22,591 nt of DNA from a virus, in IMG/VR virus record IMGVR_UViG_3300029319_000307, positions 3,936 to 26,526 of that record; one strand, written 5' to 3'. The first letter of the stretch is position 1, and each line of letters starts with the position of its first letter. Positions 3,325-21,082 of this stretch are shown here, in pieces. The position numbers and the translations under genes are program-made. The notes beneath the pieces were generated by a model, which was not told the DNA's origin, did not search any database, and saw nothing but the letters and a program-made list of their open reading frames with translations.

Positions 3325-4311
3325 ATGAATAACTGGTACACTTTTGAAAACAATGCAAGTTTTGTGGAAATTTCTATTTATGATGAAATAGGAGATTATG
3401 GAACTTCAGCAAAAAACTTTATACAAGATTTAAAATCAGCAGGAGATAAAAACATTAACCTTAGAATGAACTCTGTAGGTGGTAGTGTTTTTGATGGTCT
3501 TGCTATATATAATGTATTAAGAGCACATAAAGGTCATGTCAATGTAAAGATTGAAGGTTTATCTGCATCTATTGCTAGTATTATAGCTTTAGCAGGAGAT
3601 AAGATAGAAATGGCTGAAAATGGATTCTTTATGATACATAATCCTTTCGGTAAATCAGCAGGTGATGCAGAAGATATGCGTAAAACAGCAGATTTACTAG
3701 ATAAGATTAAACAAGAGCTTGTATCTATCTATGCGAGTAAAACTGAGTTAACAAACGAAGAAATCTCAAATATGATGGATGAAGAAACTTGGCTAACAAG
3801 CCAAGAGGCTAAAGAAATGGGTTTTATAGATGTTATTACAGATCCTATTAAAGTAGCTGCAAGTTTTAACTTCTCTAAGTTTACTAATGTAAATGAGTCA
3901 GAAGTTAGAAACAAACTAGAGTTAATTAGTAATATTAAAAAAACGAAAATGACTGACGAATTGAAAAATTGGTTTAATGGCGTAAAAGAAGAAATAATCA
4001 ACGCTGTTAAGGGTAAAGACGTAGATGAAAGCCCAGTTAATGAAGTTTCTGTTGTTCTTTCTGACAATGACGAAGTAGTTAATAAACTTACAGACTTATC
4101 AAATGAGAAAGAAGAACTTTCAAATATCGTTTCTGAAAAAGAAAGTAAAATTTCTGAATTAGAAAACAAGATGTCTGAATTGGAAGCAGAGTTAGCGAAA
4201 TTAAACGCTACAGAAACAAAACTAGAGGCAGAAAATGACCCTGCAATTAACAAAGCTGATGTAAAAGCTGTTAATGAGTGGGAAGTTTTCGCTAAATCAT
4301 TATTAAAATAA
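3325..4311 (+). CDS. Head maturation protease, ClpP/S14 type, with scaffold-like C-terminal tail
   Basis: Cleaves scaffold and capsid precursor during prohead maturation. 328 residues from ATG 3325. The fold starts with FVEISIYDEIGDYGTS, then MNSVGGSVFDGLAIYN (48-63). The serine nucleophile motif is GLSASIAS (Ser82), the catalytic His is in MIHNP (His105), and the acidic residue is probably in DEETWLTSQEAKEMGFID (152-169). Residues about 205-328 form a separate tail rich in Glu/Lys/Ser heptads, a coiled coil like phage scaffolds. This is the lambda C/Nu3-type arrangement. The frame stays open upstream to an ATG at 3223, but that start would overlap the previous gene and add a non-homologous leader, so 3325 is preferred. 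The capsid gene follows 13 bases later. Confidence 0.9.
   Translation: MNNWYTFENNASFVEISIYDEIGDYGTSAKNFIQDLKSAGDKNINLRMNSVGGSVFDGLAIYNVLRAHKGHVNVKIEGLSASIASIIALAGDKIEMAENGFFMIHNPFGKSAGDAEDMRKTADLLDKIKQELVSIYASKTELTNEEISNMMDEETWLTSQEAKEMGFIDVITDPIKVAASFNFSKFTNVNESEVRNKLELISNIKKTKMTDELKNWFNGVKEEIINAVKGKDVDESPVNEVSVVLSDNDEVVNKLTDLSNEKEELSNIVSEKESKISELENKMSELEAELAKLNATETKLEAENDPAINKADVKAVNEWEVFAKSLLK
3949..4311 (+). other. Possible internal start producing scaffold alone
   Basis: An in-frame ATG at 3949 (Met209 of the protease), preceded by the A-rich AAAAAAACGAAA typical of starts in this phage, falls at the junction between the protease domain and the coiled-coil tail. Translation from here would give a 120-residue free scaffold, as Nu3 is made inside lambda C. 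The position is what the sequence shows; use of the start is inference. Proteolytic release would be the alternative. Confidence 0.35.
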
Positions 4312-10010: not shown

Positions 10011-11038
10011 TGAGATGGCTGCTTCTAACATTACTTTCTGTTATTTGCATATCATCTGAGGCACAAATAAAAAAAATATTTAAATTTTCTACATTTTATG
10101 TGGCAGCAAATGGAGGCACATCTATATCAGATAGGGATGTGTTTTCAGTATCTAGTCAGTTGACTAAAGAAGTAGTTGAAACACCTTACGATTACTCTGT
10201 TATAGCTGGTGTAAGAAAGATACAACGCTTTCAGTACGAAGGTAGCACACCTTTTAAGGATGGTACAGAATCTTCTTATGGTGATGCAGCAACAGTAGGT
10301 AGAAATCCTTTTGAATATTTATTTGAAATAAACTATACAAGACAAGAAGGTGTAAAGTATATAGATCAAAATCATTTTATAAGATATGTAAAACCTAAAT
10401 GGTTAGTCAAATTAGAATATGTAAAAGATGGTTTTGCAGATATAGAATATTATGAAACTACACAAAGACTAAGATTAAGAGGCAACAAGAAGCTGTCGTT
10501 TAATATAGGAGCTTTACAGCGTATATCTGAGCCTTATGGATATAACCCCTTAGATGAGTGGTTGCTGTCAAATAACAACATACATTACACTTATTTAGCA
10601 ATACAAGAAGGTTATTCTGTAGATGTATTTGCTTCTGAATATAAAGACCCACAAGGTAATGTAGTTGCTACAAGTACAGATGTATGGGAGCAGGTTGTAA
10701 TACCTGATGTATTATCTGATTATGTAGAGAAAAAAAGAAATGAATTGCCAAATCAATGGGTACATTCTTTAGTGTTAGGGTTTGACTTTTATCATTACAA
10801 AAAAAACTGGTGGTTACATAGTTGGGGAAACCTAATACCATACCACTATAATGATGGAGGTAGGTACTCTTATCATAATTTTAACAACAATAAACAATGG
10901 TATGATTATTCTGGGGGTATGATTTTTGGCTGGAAGGTCAATAAATCTTTAGGTTTATTTGTAGAAAACAAATATTCTAAATACTGGAATAGAACTTGGT
11001 ATGACTTTAAAGTAGGAATTAACTATATAATATTTTAG
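10010..11038 (+). CDS. Exported outer-membrane-like protein
   Basis: 342 residues from ATG 10010; an upstream ATG at 9974 is in frame but would precede and spoil the signal peptide. MRWLLLTLLSVICISSEAQ is a clear Sec signal ending in a Bacteroidota-style EAQ site. The mature part is beta-rich: STFYVAANGGTSISDRDVFS, a SVIAGVRKIQRFQYEG motif, HFIRYVKPKWLVKLEY, GFADIEYYE, and alternating aromatic strands to a terminal Phe (VGINYIIF), the end expected of an outer-membrane beta-barrel. A related protein recurs in flavobacterial phages; I know of no assigned function. It may be a host-surface modifier or a virion protein with a vestigial signal. It heads the envelope-targeted cassette. Confidence 0.75.
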   Translation: MRWLLLTLLSVICISSEAQIKKIFKFSTFYVAANGGTSISDRDVFSVSSQLTKEVVETPYDYSVIAGVRKIQRFQYEGSTPFKDGTESSYGDAATVGRNPFEYLFEINYTRQEGVKYIDQNHFIRYVKPKWLVKLEYVKDGFADIEYYETTQRLRLRGNKKLSFNIGALQRISEPYGYNPLDEWLLSNNNIHYTYLAIQEGYSVDVFASEYKDPQGNVVATSTDVWEQVVIPDVLSDYVEKKRNELPNQWVHSLVLGFDFYHYKKNWWLHSWGNLIPYHYNDGGRYSYHNFNNNKQWYDYSGGMIFGWKVNKSLGLFVENKYSKYWNRTWYDFKVGINYIIF

Positions 11039-11401: not shown

Positions 11402-11751
11402 TGTATATAACAAGATGGAAATTAATGTTGACATGGTTGTTGGTTTCTTTATTCTTGCTTGTATCGCAGGACACCTTATCACAGGTCAAAGCGATACACT
11501 TTAATGCAGATTGGAATAAACAAAACACAGCAGAGTGGTTTGACAAATTAGGTGATTGTGAAAAGCAATCTTTTATGATAGATGGTAATGATTTGCAAAA
11601 AAAATACCAAATAGCTATTGTACCTACTATTGTAATTTTTGATGATGGTGAAGAAGTAAAAAGGTTTCAAGCAGATATTAGCTTCAAGATGTCAGCAACT
11701 AGACAAGAAGTACAAGATTATATTGATGAATTAATAATGAGTAAATTCTAA
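11401..11751 (+). CDS. Exported thioredoxin-fold protein without the CxxC
   Basis: 116 residues. An N-terminal hydrophobic signal (WKLMLTWLLVSLFLLVSQ, about 6-23) is followed by a thioredoxin-like domain: strand VKAIHFNADWNKQN (the active-site loop, where WCxxC would be, reads ADWNKQN with no Cys), helix, strand SFMIDGNDLQKKYQI, then VPTIVIFDDGEEVKRFQAD with the conserved cis-Pro and Gly, and a terminal helix. Related redox-dead thioredoxin-like proteins occur in marine phages. Without the two Cys it cannot do dithiol exchange, so binding or chaperone-like use is more likely. Its neighbours are Cys-rich exported proteins. One-base overlaps at both ends (TAATG) suggest translational coupling. 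Confidence 0.75.
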   Translation: MYITRWKLMLTWLLVSLFLLVSQDTLSQVKAIHFNADWNKQNTAEWFDKLGDCEKQSFMIDGNDLQKKYQIAIVPTIVIFDDGEEVKRFQADISFKMSATRQEVQDYIDELIMSKF

Positions 11752-13922
11752 TGAACAATTATACAAAATTTATATATGCTTTTATAATAGTTATTGTTTT
11801 TACAGTAGCTACAACATTTGGTCAATGTCCTCCTAATACATGGAGTCTTAATGTAACAATAAATCCAGATCAATATCCTGAAGAAACATCTTGGTATATT
11901 ATGAACTTTTGGGGTGATACACTAATGCAAGGAGGTACTTATGATAATATAGTAGATTATGAACCACAATATGCTTCAGCTTGTGCACCGATAGATAGTT
12001 TTTATTTTGTTATTAGTGATACTTATGGTGATGGTATTGCAGGTAGTCTATGGGGTGGTAATGATGGTTCTGTTTATATAGAACAATGTGGTGATACTAT
12101 ATGGACTTTACCAGTAGCAGATTTTGGTAACTTTTTATATGATACAATATACACTTCAGGATGTCCTCCACCACCACCTATTTTTGGGTGTATGGATAGC
12201 AGTTATGTAGAGTTTGACCTAACAGCTACATTAGATACAGGTATGTGTTTTACACCTAAAATTTATGGATGCACAGACTCAACTGCTTACAACTATGTTG
12301 TGGGTGCTAACACTGATATAAATATTGATAGTTGTTTACATGAGTTAGAATTAACTGACTTAGCTGGTAATGGTTGGGCTGGTTCTTCACTTAAAGTACA
12401 ACAAGCTACAAGTTTGATACCTCCTTTTAATTATGTAGATATAGGAACATTTACTTTGCTAGATGGTTTTGACACTACATTTTTCTTTAATTTACAAGCA
12501 GGATATAAAGTAAAAGCAGTATTTGAAATAACACAACAATCTGATTTTACAGCAGTACAATGTGGTTATAAATTATATTCTGGTGATTATGTTGCTATAG
12601 ATATTGAAGGTGGATTTGTAAATCCTATACCACCATTTTTTCCAATAATAGGTAATCCTTATTGTGGCAATCAATGTATAGAAAGAACTTATGGTTGTAC
12701 TGATAGCACTGCTTTAAACTACATAGATACAGTAAATACAGATGATGGTAGTTGTTACTACTATGCAGGCTGTACTAATCCTTTATATTTAGAGTATGAC
12801 TCTATATACGATTATGATGATGGTAGCTGTCAAACTTTAATAGTTCTAGGATGTATGGATAGCACAGCATTAAACTATAATCCAAATGCAAACGTAGAAA
12901 TACCAAATTCTTGTATTGAGGTTGTAGAAGGATGTACTGATAATACAATGTTTAATTATAATGTAAATGCAAATGTTGATGATGGTAGTTGTATTCCATT
13001 TATTTATGGATGCACTGATGTTACTGCATTTAATTATGATTCATTAGCGAATACAGATGATGGTTCGTGCACACCAGTAGTCTGGGGTTGTACTGATGGT
13101 ACAGCCTTTAACTATAACCCATTAGCTAACACAGATGATGGTAGTTGTGTACCTGTAATTTTTGGTTGTACTGACAATACAATGTTTAACTACAATCCTT
13201 TAGCTAATACTGATAATGGAAGCTGTGAGCCATTTGTTTATGGTTGTATGGATTCTACTATGTTTAATTATAATCCTACAGCAAATGTAGATAACAACTC
13301 ATGTATTGCATTTATATATGGTTGTACTGATCCTTCAGCTTTAAATTATAATCCACAAGCTAATACTGAAGATTTTAGCTGTATTGATTATGTATATGGC
13401 TGTACTGATAGCACTGCTCTTAATTATGATGCACAAGCAAACACTGATAATGGCACTTGTATATATCCTATATATGGTTGTACTGATTTAGATGCAGAAA
13501 ACTATAATTCATTAGCTAATGTATCAGATAGCTCTTGTTATTACTCTGCTGGTTGCTCAGTAGGAGATATTTATTACATACCTAATGAATGTTTTGAATG
13601 GGTTATTGATGTAGATAATTTTTGTTGTGATGTAGAATGGGATAATACTTGTGATTATTTATACCAATATTGTGTAGATGGATGGACAGGAACTACTGAT
13701 ATACAAAATTTAAGAACATCAATGTTTCAAGTATATCCAAACCCAACAAAAGGAACTGTATTTTTTACTGATAAAGTTAATGTTAAAGTATATGATGCAA
13801 TAGGTTCTATTATTATAGATAAAGAAAATGTTACATCAATAAACATAAACAAAAAAGGCATTTATATGATAGCTATAAGCTACAAAGATATGTCAATTTT
13901 AACTAAAATAATTAAAAACTAA
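11751..13922 (+). CDS. Secreted Cys-rich repeat protein with T9SS C-terminal sorting domain
   Basis: 723 residues. A signal peptide (1-24, ending TTFGQ) is followed by a beta domain with SDTYGDGIAGSLWGG (about 25-140). Repeats 1-2 of a 'GCTDSTAxNYNPxANxDDGSC' unit lie at 145-195. A second beta domain with LELTDLAGNGWAGSSLKV covers 196-313, repeats 3-13 cover 314-596, and a Cys-rich domain with DNFCCDVEWDNTCDY follows (about 597-650). Residues 658-723 are a type A T9SS sorting domain: VYPNPTKG, VKVYDAIGS, then KKGIYMIAIS and a basic LTKIIKN end. In Bacteroidota such tails send proteins across the outer membrane and attach them to the surface. This phage product should therefore be exported by host machinery, as a surface adhesin, mask or decoy. 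Virion attachment cannot be excluded. One-base overlaps at both ends tie it to the operon. Confidence 0.88.
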   Translation: MNNYTKFIYAFIIVIVFTVATTFGQCPPNTWSLNVTINPDQYPEETSWYIMNFWGDTLMQGGTYDNIVDYEPQYASACAPIDSFYFVISDTYGDGIAGSLWGGNDGSVYIEQCGDTIWTLPVADFGNFLYDTIYTSGCPPPPPIFGCMDSSYVEFDLTATLDTGMCFTPKIYGCTDSTAYNYVVGANTDINIDSCLHELELTDLAGNGWAGSSLKVQQATSLIPPFNYVDIGTFTLLDGFDTTFFFNLQAGYKVKAVFEITQQSDFTAVQCGYKLYSGDYVAIDIEGGFVNPIPPFFPIIGNPYCGNQCIERTYGCTDSTALNYIDTVNTDDGSCYYYAGCTNPLYLEYDSIYDYDDGSCQTLIVLGCMDSTALNYNPNANVEIPNSCIEVVEGCTDNTMFNYNVNANVDDGSCIPFIYGCTDVTAFNYDSLANTDDGSCTPVVWGCTDGTAFNYNPLANTDDGSCVPVIFGCTDNTMFNYNPLANTDNGSCEPFVYGCMDSTMFNYNPTANVDNNSCIAFIYGCTDPSALNYNPQANTEDFSCIDYVYGCTDSTALNYDAQANTDNGTCIYPIYGCTDLDAENYNSLANVSDSSCYYSAGCSVGDIYYIPNECFEWVIDVDNFCCDVEWDNTCDYLYQYCVDGWTGTTDIQNLRTSMFQVYPNPTKGTVFFTDKVNVKVYDAIGSIIIDKENVTSININKKGIYMIAISYKDMSILTKIIKN
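12183..12335 (+). repeat. First two Cys-rich repeats of the T9SS protein
   Basis: Two diverged copies of the 'GCxDSxxxxYxxxAxxDxxxC' unit (residues 145-195), starting FGCMDSS and YGCTDSTAYNY. They are separated from the main tandem block by a beta domain of about 120 residues. They look like the oldest or most drifted copies. Confidence 0.7.
12690..13538 (+). repeat. Eleven tandem Cys-rich repeats
   Basis: Eleven coding repeats averaging about 26 codons. Each has two Cys: one in GCT/MD at the start and one in DDGSC or a variant at the end, linked by NYNPxAN. Copies 7-9 are the most alike at DNA level (for example ACAGATGATGG in copies 7 and 8). This indicates past duplication or exchange inside the gene. 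Each unit probably closes one disulphide outside the cell. Confidence 0.88.
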
Positions 13923-17285: not shown

Positions 17286-17585
17286 ATGGAAATAAAAGGA
17301 ACACTAGAAGCAAAATATGACACTAAAGAATTTAAAAGTGGCTTTAGAAAAAGGGAGTTTGTAATTAATACAGGTGGCGATTATCCACAAACAATTAAAT
17401 TAGAAGCTCATAAAGACAATATATCTAAGATAGATAGTATTAGTGTAGGTCAGGATATTATATGTCAAATAAACATAACAGGAAGGCTTTATGAAGGCAA
17501 CTATTACAATAATATAGTAGCTTGGAAAATAGACACAACTACACAAACCGAAACTAAAAACAATGAACCAGATTTACCCTTTTAA
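17286..17585 (+). CDS. Single-stranded DNA-binding protein, DUF3127-like OB fold
   Basis: 99 residues. The order G-T-L-E-A-K-Y, F-K-S-G-F-R-K-R-E-F-V-I, YPQTIKLEAH, ISVGQDIICQINITGRLYEG and YYNNIVAWKI matches the five-strand OB fold of the DUF3127/SSB-like family. The C-terminus NNEPDLPF copies the acidic '-DDDIPF' tail that bacterial SSB uses to recruit partners. It should coat ssDNA during phage replication and bring in replication proteins. Neighbours are the HTH protein and the DnaA-domain-IV-like protein. Length is short compared with host SSB, normal for phage versions. ATG 17286 follows TAAA. Confidence 0.78.
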   Translation: MEIKGTLEAKYDTKEFKSGFRKREFVINTGGDYPQTIKLEAHKDNISKIDSISVGQDIICQINITGRLYEGNYYNNIVAWKIDTTTQTETKNNEPDLPF

Positions 17586-17587
17586 TT

Positions 17588-18064
17588 ATGAAACAATATA
17601 ACAAAGAAAAGAAGTTTGTAGGACAAAAAGAGATCAGTAGATTAAAAACTATTGTTTGTGCACAGCTTGGATTAAACAATACTGCAATTAATAGCAGAGT
17701 AAAAAATTCTGATAATGTAAATGCTAGACTTATATTTAGCAACATACTAATGTTTGAATTAGAAATACCTGTTGGTAAGATGTCAGAATTTGTCAATAAG
17801 GATAGAAGTAATTTTTATCACTACATAAAATTACACAATCAAGCATTAGAAATGCCAAAGTTTTACCAAGAGTATTTAAGAGATTATGAAATTTGCAAGG
17901 ATGAGTTTTTAAACAAAACACATACAAAAGTTAAAAAGTGGCAAATAATGATTGAAAAATTATCATACAATTACAAAAAGCTAGATGATAAGCTAAATAA
18001 TATTCAAAGACAGATCAACAATTTTGTAGAAGAAGAACAATTAAATAATCAAGACAATGGCTAA
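17588..18064 (+). CDS. DnaA domain IV-like DNA-binding protein
   Basis: 158 residues. Residues about 46-87 (ARLIFSNILMFELEIPVGKM, then SEFVNKDRSNFYHYIKLHNQ) resemble the DNA-binding domain IV of DnaA: 'A-R-x-I-x-x-x-L ... I-x-x-x-F-x-x-D-R-S-x-x-x-H-x'. The usual DHST signature reads DRSN here. There is no AAA+ domain. The N-terminus is basic; residues about 98-150 are charged coiled coil (KLDDKLNNIQRQINNFVEEE). It probably binds specific sites at the phage origin. It sits between the ssDNA-binding and replisome organizer-like genes. Overlaps the next gene by 8 bases. Confidence 0.65.
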   Translation: MKQYNKEKKFVGQKEISRLKTIVCAQLGLNNTAINSRVKNSDNVNARLIFSNILMFELEIPVGKMSEFVNKDRSNFYHYIKLHNQALEMPKFYQEYLRDYEICKDEFLNKTHTKVKKWQIMIEKLSYNYKKLDDKLNNIQRQINNFVEEEQLNNQDNG

Positions 18065-18686
18065 AAGAATGACTGATACAGATAAATGGAAGAAAAGATT
18101 TATTCGTGAACTAAAACCTAAACACAAATTGCTGTGGCTATATATATTAGATGATTGTAACCATGCTGGTATATGGGAGATTGATTTAGATGTAGCATCT
18201 ATAAGGGTAGGTGAAGCAGTTGGATATAAAGACTTAGATGTTTTTGGTAATAAGATAATTATGTTTGACAATAATGAAAAATGTTTTATACCTGATTTTA
18301 TAGAGTTTCAATATGGCGAATTAAATCCAAACTCTAATGTTCATAAGTCAGTCATTTCATTATTAAGCAGATACAATCTTGAAGGGTACATGAAGGGTAC
18401 ACAAACCCCTCCTGAACCCATTATTGAAAAAACTATAAAAAGATTTAAAAAACCAACAGTAGAGGATGTTTCTTTGTATTGTCAAAGCAGAAATAACTTT
18501 GTAGATGCAGAAAAGTTTTTTGATTTTTATTCTTCTAATGGTTGGAAGGTAGGTAAAAATGCTATGAAAGATTGGAAGGCTGCTGTTAGAACTTGGGAGA
18601 AGAACTCAACAACAGAGCAAACTAAAAGTAAAGTAGAACAATCTCTTGATACTTGGCAAGAGGCAAGACGTATGATAAATGGATAA
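18057..18686 (+). CDS. Replisome organizer / replication initiation-like protein
   Basis: 209 residues. The N-terminal KWKKRFIRELKPKHKLLWLY, then DDCNHAGIWEIDLDVASIRV (about 10-50) is the winged-helix type start common in phage replication initiators. A middle region with IPDFIEFQYGELNPNSNVHKS follows, then Pro-rich linker. The C-terminal FKKPTVEDVSLYCQSRNNF and FFDFYSSNGWKVGKNAMKDW (about 136-180) match the domain often found at the end of phage replication proteins (DnaD-like or O-like). Expected to bind the origin and help load helicase. A second ATG is 12 bases downstream. Overlaps both neighbours by 8 bases. Confidence 0.75.
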   Translation: MAKRMTDTDKWKKRFIRELKPKHKLLWLYILDDCNHAGIWEIDLDVASIRVGEAVGYKDLDVFGNKIIMFDNNEKCFIPDFIEFQYGELNPNSNVHKSVISLLSRYNLEGYMKGTQTPPEPIIEKTIKRFKKPTVEDVSLYCQSRNNFVDAEKFFDFYSSNGWKVGKNAMKDWKAAVRTWEKNSTTEQTKSKVEQSLDTWQEARRMING

Positions 18687-19074: not shown

Positions 19075-19217
19075 ATTTATTTATATTAACATTGTCAATA
19101 CTATCTTTATTATATGTTAGCATTTGGTTAGTTTATTCTGATAGGGTATATAAAAAAAAGAAGAAAGAATTTGAAGATAGATTAAAAAAATTTGACAATA
19201 AAGATACTGAAAATTGA
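19071..19217 (+). CDS. 48-residue single-TM protein
   Basis: ATG 19071 overlaps the preceding stop (ATGA). The product has an N-terminal membrane segment (NLFILTLSILSLLYVSIWLV, residues 2-21) and a highly charged tail (YKKKKKEFEDRLKKF...). The arrangement suggests an inner-membrane peptide with a cytoplasmic basic coiled coil. Its TGA stop overlaps the TTG start of the nuclease gene, so coupling to both neighbours supports it being real. Function unknown; membrane tethering of replication proteins or host control are possible. Confidence 0.65.
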   Translation: MNLFILTLSILSLLYVSIWLVYSDRVYKKKKKEFEDRLKKFDNKDTEN

Positions 19218-19573
19218 AAGAATTAAGTGAAGAAAAAATACAAATAGCTATTGTAAATTATTTAAAGTTGCAATATCCTAAGTTGTTATTTACTGCAACA
19301 ATGGGTGGTCAATATCAAAAACATCACTCACAAAGGCGAAGGGCAAAGCAAACAGGCTATTTAAGGGGGGTAAGTGATTTACTTATATTTGAGCCAAGAG
19401 GTATATACTCAGGATTATTTATAGAATTGAAAAGAAACAAAAAATGCTACCCAACTAAAGAACAAAAAGAATTTATATTAAAAGCAAAAAGCAGGGGGTA
19501 CTACGCTGTATGTGCCAAAGGTTTTGATCAATGTAAAGAAATTATAGATAATTATTTAAATGATAAATTATGA
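19214..19573 (+). CDS. VRR-NUC nuclease (TTG start)
   Basis: 119 residues. The PD-(D/E)xK core is GVSDLLIFEPRG (Asp55) and GLFIELKRNKK (Glu71, Lys73), followed by PTKEQKEFILKAKSRGYYAV and CKEIIDNYL, the signature of the VRR-NUC family. N-terminal EEKIQIAIVNYLKLQYP is the family's first helix. Phage VRR-NUC proteins act on DNA junctions or ends in replication, recombination or packaging. The start must be TTG 19214 (TTGA with the previous stop), because the next ATG is beyond the conserved first helix. This is one of the few non-ATG starts in the window. Contains G6 and G5 tracts. Confidence 0.85.
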   Translation: MKELSEEKIQIAIVNYLKLQYPKLLFTATMGGQYQKHHSQRRRAKQTGYLRGVSDLLIFEPRGIYSGLFIELKRNKKCYPTKEQKEFILKAKSRGYYAVCAKGFDQCKEIIDNYLNDKL

Positions 19574-20093: not shown

Positions 20094-20291
20094 ATGAGCA
20101 TAAATCCATTTGAAAGAAAAGATAGCAGAGGAGGGGGGTACGCTAAAAGAAAGTTTACCTTACAAGAAGCTATAGAAATTAGAGAAGAATATAATCAGGG
20201 GGGGGTGTCCCAGAATCAACTTGCTAGAAAATATAATGTTTCTCAGCCTATTATTAATATGTTGTTGAGAAAGAAAACTTATACAAAATAA
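20094..20291 (+). CDS. HTH protein, resolvase/homing-nuclease-module type
   Basis: 65 residues. After a basic, Gly-rich N-terminus (INPFERKDSRGGGYAKRKF) comes a helix-turn-helix: LQEAIEIREEYNQGG, SQNQLARKYNVSQPIINML, then a basic RKKTY end. 'Q-x-x-L-A-x-K-Y-x-V-S-x-x-x-I-x-x-x-L' is the pattern of the C-terminal HTH of resolvases and of nuclease-associated modules. Stand-alone phage versions act as transcription regulators. It is the last gene of the operon and lies directly before the promoter at 20294, which it might control. Contains G6 and G8 tracts. Confidence 0.68.
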   Translation: MSINPFERKDSRGGGYAKRKFTLQEAIEIREEYNQGGVSQNQLARKYNVSQPIINMLLRKKTYTK

Positions 20292-20765: not shown

Positions 20766-20802
20766 AAAAGTGGGAGTGGTTGAAACTGCTCCCCTTTTTT
20801 TT
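20766..20802 (+). terminator. Terminator after the acidic gene
   Basis: AAAAGTGGGAG (20766-20776) pairs with CTCCCCTTTT (20789-20798) with one bulged T, and T8 follows the C-run (20795-20802). The loop contains the first TGAAACTGC repeat. Confidence 0.78.
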
Positions 20803-20858
20803 ACTGAAACTGCCAACAAAATCCCAGCAAAACTTCTGTGAAACTGCTGTGAAACTGC
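20781..20858 (+). repeat. Iteron-like TGAAACTGC repeats
   Basis: Four exact copies of TGAAACTGC at 20781, 20805, 20839 and 20850. The last two are 11 bases apart, one helical turn, and sit between inverted CCCAGCA (20823-20829) and TGCTGGG (20856-20862), the latter overlapping the last copy. This looks like a protein-binding cluster and lies beside very AT-rich DNA. Confidence 0.7.
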
Positions 20859-20869
20859 TGGGTCTGCTG

Positions 20870-21046
20870 TGTAAAATTTAGTATGCACTTATATTTATTA
20901 ACAATTTTTTTGTTCATAACTTTTTTATATTTTTTATTTTGTTTTTAATTATTTTTTGTTATTCGCCTGTACCTATATAACAAAATGAGTATATAAATTT
21001 TTTTATTTTTTTTTAATTTATTTGTATTGTATTAAAATATTTTTAT
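20870..21046. other. AT-rich region, candidate DNA-unwinding element
   Basis: About 177 bases with almost no G or C apart from a short GTTATTCGCCTGTACC patch (20959-20974), and long T-runs. No ORF is visible. Next to the iteron-like repeats this is the arrangement of many plasmid and phage origins. It also supplies the upstream region of the promoter at 21047. Origin function is inference. Confidence 0.5.
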
Positions 21047-21054
21047 TATATTTG
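21047..21054 (+). promoter_or_regulatory. -7 box TATATTTG upstream of the small-gene cluster
   Basis: A perfect TAnnTTTG match 28 bases before the ATG at 21083. TTG triplets lie 17 bases (21027-21029) and 22 bases (21022-21024) upstream, neither at the ideal 19-21. It is the only promoter candidate for the genes up to 22545. Confidence 0.6.
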
Positions 21055-21082
21055 TACCAATATTAATCAAAACAAAAAACAA

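Follow-up and report, generated by a model that had tools for sequence, protein, structure and literature searches.

The locus and its replication operon

The window analysed here is a stretch of 22,591 nucleotides, positions 3936–26526 of the contig of IMG/VR record IMGVR_UViG_3300029319_000307, a viral sequence of 30,539 bp. Between 17.3 and 20.7 kb, it contains an early operon for a single-strand DNA-binding protein, nucleases, an organizer-like protein and a DnaA domain IV protein that stands alone, with the following genes:

17286–17585, + strand: single-strand DNA-binding protein (DUF3127 / phrog_4932)
17588–18064, + strand: DnaA domain IV-like protein, candidate TTATNAACA binder
18057–18686, + strand: replisome organizer-like protein, candidate iteron binder
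19214–19573, + strand: VRR-NUC / Holliday-junction-resolvase-like nuclease, also part of this operon

The GC skew of the contig is positive throughout, without a sign change at the locus or elsewhere; as every ORF of at least 100 amino acids that was counted in the contig lies on one strand, the skew is uninformative about the origin.

The protein encoded at 17588 had been described from its sequence as DnaA-domain-IV-like, and its predicted structure agrees with this. The model (pLDDT 86.7) consists of a DNA-binding domain (helices 13–88), followed by a 46-residue carboxy-terminal helix (residues 111–156). Its ten best matches in the PDB are all DnaA, and it superposes onto the DnaA domain IV-DNA complexes 3pvp (target TM 0.80) and 1j1v (0.78) with an r.m.s.d. 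of 1.9–2.2; the Foldseek E-values are modest (best 0.02), with probabilities of about 1.0. Against the Pfam family Bac_DnaA_C, the protein itself scores 13.3 bits, under the gathering score of 31.5, while homologues from the same neighbourhood in related phages score 41–70 bits, apart from the divergent L023, which stays below 31.5. A joint profile of these homologues retrieves DnaA structures. The likeness to bacterial DnaA lies in the fold, the Pfam matches of the homologues and a related 9-bp box. Unlike bacterial DnaA, the phage protein has no AAA+ domain, it carries the long carboxy-terminal helix, its recognition segment reads KDRSNFYHY instead of DH[AT]TV, and the phage box differs at position 6.

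The protein encoded at 18057 is a candidate replisome organizer. Its amino-terminus has the helix-helix-strand-helix-helix-wing topology typical of winged-helix domains, modelled with good local confidence, while the carboxy-terminal part is poorly resolved in the model and appears DnaD-like, as in helicase loaders, by a weak match. The sequence matches phrog_8489 (E 0.0023), and a search of the PDB with the model gave no significant match.

The gene-free region downstream of the operon

The operon is followed by a region that contains only short, mechanically called ORFs and is in this sense gene-free, as first noted. The following features are located in it:

20772–20803, + strand: intrinsic terminator, GGGAGTGGTTGAAACTGCTCCC plus T-run, closing the replication operon
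20781–20789, + strand: TGAAACTGC copy 1, within the hairpin of the terminator
20805–20813, + strand: TGAAACTGC copy 2
20828–20836, + strand: decayed iteron CAAAACTTC, one 11-bp step ahead of copy 3; its counterpart in L004 reads CGAAACTGC
20839–20847, + strand: iteron copy 3
20850–20858, + strand: iteron copy 4, spaced from copy 3 by 11 bp, the modal pitch of the family
20860–20867, + strand: terminal element GGGTCTGC
20880–21067, no strand: AT-rich tract, candidate duplex-unwinding element
20895–20903, + strand: DnaA-box-like site TTATTAACA, with a single change, C6 to A, relative to TTATNCACA
20911–20919, − strand: DnaA-box-like site TGTTCATAA (TTATGAACA on the − strand)
20960–20978, + strand: GC-containing element TATTCGCCTGTACCTATAT (conserved element TATTYGCSYGTACYTATAT) inside the AT-rich tract
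21027–21054, + strand: Bacteroidota-type promoter TTG...TATATTTG, −7 element at 21047–21054, directed away from the array

The four exact copies of TGAAACTGC reported in the original prediction were recovered (starting at 20781, 20805, 20839 and 20850, all on the + strand and spanning 78 bp), and there are no further exact copies anywhere in the 30,539-bp contig. When the contig was shuffled with its dinucleotides preserved, none of 200 shuffles gave any 9-mer with at least three G/C four times within 80 bp; three copies within 80 bp were obtained in two of the 200. Helical phasing in the window is limited to copies 3 and 4, the two predicted to lie one helical turn apart, plus the decayed unit before them. 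Copy 1 is placed differently, being contained in the loop and 3' arm of the terminator hairpin (20772–20793), which has a 9-bp stem, a folding energy of −17.4 kcal/mol and a z-score of −5.1. Copies 2–4 lie beyond the terminator, and the array is downstream of the replication operon, as first noted.

The sequences CCCAGCA and TGCTGGG, which had been taken to frame the phased copies, are both present (20823–20829 and 20856–20862). As a separate functional palindrome they were discarded, as the pair is not conserved in relatives (L010 has GCCAG). In L004, the closest relative, the window segment CCCAGCAAAACTTC is replaced by CCCAGCGAAACTGC, so the left-hand frame looks like part of the decayed iteron at 20828–20836, and the two sequences most likely belong to the iteron units. 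Window and L004 differ by one unit, missing in one or the other as an exact 11-bp step with both flanks unchanged.

Beyond the iterons, the two DnaA-box-like sites form an inverted pair of the TTATNAACA type with a 7-bp spacer, at the start of the AT-rich tract. The least stable 100 bp of the contig start at 20973 and the least stable 180 bp at 20888. The description of this tract as some 180 bases of nearly pure A/T was too strong: positions 20880–21060 are 86% A+T, with TTCGCCTGTACC inside.

Conservation in related phages

A scan of IMG/VR with the organizer protein yielded 80 loci. Most of those reaching far enough contain a gene-free array downstream of the operon, of either the TGAAACTGC type or the AAGTAACTGC type, the sequence GWAACTGCY being common to both alleles. 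With an independent DNA-pattern scan, made without a protein query, a total of 103 non-redundant GWAACTGCY arrays was collected from IMG/VR. Of the loci from the pattern scan, 80 hold an organizer gene too, and in all 80 the array lies 1.5–4.7 kb downstream of that gene on the same strand. Arrays contain two to six exact units, and their pitch, measured over the 117 distinct arrays, is mostly 11 bp, in 194 intervals, or 12 bp, in 49. An element of the GGTCTGC/AGTCTGC/GACCTGC type follows within 25 bp of the last unit in 48 of these 117.

Residue 20 of the organizer was considered as a switch for iteron specificity, being lysine or serine with TGAAACTGC and threonine or glutamine with AAGTAACTGC in 41 loci. 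New loci contradict this, with S20 beside AAGT arrays in L112, L009, L021, L037 and L039 and Q20 beside a TGAAAC array in L045; once they were added, organizer residues did not track the iteron allele.

In the 80 organizer loci, TGAAACTGC occurs 284 times on the + strand, against 5.5 expected (52-fold), and twice on the − strand. This strand bias, together with the position of copy 1 in the terminator hairpin, would suit an element acting at the RNA level, such as a regulatory or sponge RNA, with the repeats carried by transcripts. We consider this highly improbable: the 11-bp pitch indicates DNA, the bias outside the arrays is largely that of Glu-Thr-Ala codons in one frame (see below), and most copies would be little transcribed because they sit between the terminator and the next promoter.

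Boxes of the TTATNAACA type are enriched next to the arrays, with 63 found within 300 bp downstream of the 103 arrays (shuffle mean 9.7, maximum 19), and two or more present in 12 of the 103 (shuffle mean 0.4); about half of the arrays have no TTATNAACA box within 300 bp. The boxes, in the window as in its relatives, differ from the canonical TTATNCACA by a single base, that at position 6. Other relatives have them as direct repeats of 11–12 bp. Presence or form of the box could not be tied to a variant of the DnaA-like gene, as boxes accompany both types of recognition helix. In three Bacteroidota genomes, too few boxes lie around dnaA to separate TTATNAACA from TTATNCACA as the host form.

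Low duplex stability is likewise found in seven relatives, whose best segment no farther than 450 bp from the array belongs to the least stable 0.6%. The GC-containing element at 20960–20978 is present, with up to three mismatches, in 15 of 100 relatives, for instance L007, L016, L026, L068 and L218.

The promoter and the packaging genes

The −7 element of the promoter resembles the Flavobacterium sigma-A consensus TAnnTTTG (PMC9723704). Downstream of the arrays, TAT[ACG]TTTG is found in 80 of 98 cases, against 6 in shuffles, and the TTG...TATATTTG promoter occurs near arrays and almost nowhere else. Among the four closest phages, the stretch beginning at the terminator is conserved up to and including the −7 element; similarity ends there, because the genes that come first after it are different. 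Some relatives of the AAGTAACTGC type carry the whole module (T-run, iterons, AT tract, TATTTGCGTGTAC-type element and promoter) twice, 1.1–1.7 kb apart, each copy followed by its own promoter (G003:9133–9198 and 10258–10304; G001:18451–18515 and 20110–20153).

Because of these double modules, the main rival to an origin is an operator or enhancer of the promoter at 21027–21054, at which a phage regulator bound to the direct repeats controls the small downstream genes, the AT tract being the promoter region; the regulator may be a 65-residue HTH protein encoded at 20094 or the organizer itself. The double modules are the strongest counter-evidence to the origin reading and suit an operator equally, and the close association of array and promoter also agrees with one. 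However, about 190 bp separate the repeats from the −7 element downstream of them (median about 155 bp in relatives), a long way for a simple operator, and the module is constant while the first downstream genes vary between the closest relatives. The DnaA-box-like sites and the extreme instability of the whole tract would also be left unexplained. On balance the operator explanation appears rather unlikely, with a role in promoter control, alone or in addition to an origin, being possible.

An imperfect palindrome, TTATTTAGAATNATTCTAAATTA, absent from the window, is found by the promoter downstream of the arrays of several relatives (G001:20204, G003:10442, L040, L059, L075 and L081). Judged by its sequence, it looks like an operator.

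The genes for the small and large terminase subunits (terS and terL) lie about 2.2 and 2.6 kb downstream, which would fit a packaging (pac) site where the small terminase binds the direct repeats. This is very unlikely, as the distance to terS ranges from 2.1 to 4.0 kb among relatives, with other genes between, and the DnaA-like boxes and the promoter would again have no explanation. A gene-free gap of 450 bp immediately 5' of terS is a better candidate. In L083 this gap of about 450 bp (L083:2500–2945, corresponding to about 22564–23009 of the window and partly outside it) contains the near-boxes ATATTCACA and ATATCCACA and a stretch of 10 N; from its sequence it is an alternative candidate, for pac or for a second origin.

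A candidate replication origin

Returning to the iterons, boxes and AT-rich tract as parts of an origin, relatives keep the terminator, the iterons of 11-bp pitch, DnaA-box-like sites and the least stable AT tract in the same place, which supports the original prediction. Iteron-plasmid origins are described as combining iterons, DnaA boxes and a duplex-unwinding element (DUE) (PMC4980987; PMC5043065), and it is because iterons, DnaA-type boxes and a tract of low stability are found here beside a phage replication operon, an arrangement also partly like that of phage lambda, that the origin reading is accepted as likely. Positions 20781–21067 are therefore probably a composite origin of the iteron/DnaA-box/DUE kind, belonging to a double-stranded DNA phage of a Bacteroidota host, from an uncultivated marine group.

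In the mechanism we propose, the organizer would bind the 11-bp-phased GAAACTGC iterons, while the inverted TTATNAACA pair just past them would be the target of the DnaA domain IV protein or of the host DnaA. Together, the two proteins would strain and open the neighbouring AT tract, and the organizer might, through its DnaD-like carboxy-terminal part, load the host helicase there, so that replication would start within 20781–21067. The terminator would exclude operon transcripts from the origin, while the promoter at 21027–21054 would direct transcription away from it.

With the origins of iteron plasmids (RK2 oriV, P1, F, pSC101), the locus shares helix-phased direct repeats, candidate DnaA-type sites, an adjacent AT-rich DUE and a replicon-coded initiator, for which the candidate here is of the winged-helix type. 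DnaA boxes accompany the iterons in many, though not all, origins of the iteron type. It differs from them in belonging to a phage, in its 9-mer core with 11-bp pitch, in its TTATNAACA sites, in that the replicon encodes its own DnaA domain IV protein, and in the location of the putative origin about 2.7 kb downstream of the initiator candidate, beyond the operon terminator. The lambda origin (O iterons plus a 40-bp A+T tract) is similar in having a phage-coded organizer and repeats beside an AT-rich tract to be opened, but the lambda iterons are 19-bp inverted repeats within gene O (PMC5043065), whereas here short direct repeats lie outside genes and are accompanied by DnaA-like boxes. The PLE satellite of Vibrio cholerae also has an iteron origin, used in phage growth, with an initiator distantly like DnaD (PMC7145576). 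In PLE the initiator is of the RepA_N type and the iterons are semi-palindromic, and no sequence relationship to the window was found. A search of a phage collection for cultured relatives gave weak or partial matches only, and a literature search found no origin described for this group of marine Bacteroidota phages.

It is conceivable, though we hold it with considerable doubt, that these phages own a DnaA system. In it, the stand-alone domain IV protein with its long carboxy-terminal helix would read shifted TTATNAACA boxes that the host DnaA may not, and, with the organizer on the iterons, opening would be partly uncoupled from the host DnaA; 9-mers in coding regions of relatives would be extra sites counting or titrating the initiator. 

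Phages of marine Bacteroidota are abundant, and most of them have not been cultured. As a replicon, an origin as compact as this, of less than 300 bp, could together with the candidate proteins yield genetic tools for marine flavobacteria. It could also help to locate origins in phage genomes from metagenomes, and serve as a test case for a DnaA DNA-binding domain working in initiation without AAA+.

Repeats in coding regions

In many relatives, the iteron 9-mer TGAAACTGC is also present as in-frame 9-bp tandem repeats, (ETA)n, coding for Glu-Thr-Ala in up to nine copies and always on the + strand (L005, L031, L032, L053, L063, L065, L070 and others); no other 9-bp tandem unit is as common in the set of relatives. 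Relative to the organizer gene, the repeats lie at about −4.8 kb and +2.4 kb, in two unrelated coding positions: that of a gene which we take, from its sequence, to be DUF3310-like, and a short ORF that precedes a gene of lysis type. G001 has AGTAACTGC at one of the two positions, the same as its array allele; G003 has no such match. A functional link between coding repeats and array is thus a possibility, and the repeats are possibly extra initiator sites or a product of slippage. In the window itself, a protein of 723 residues encoded at 11751–13922, in the lysis/structural region, contains many repeats of the GCTD(S/N)TA(L/F)NYN...A(N)TD(D/N)GSC type.
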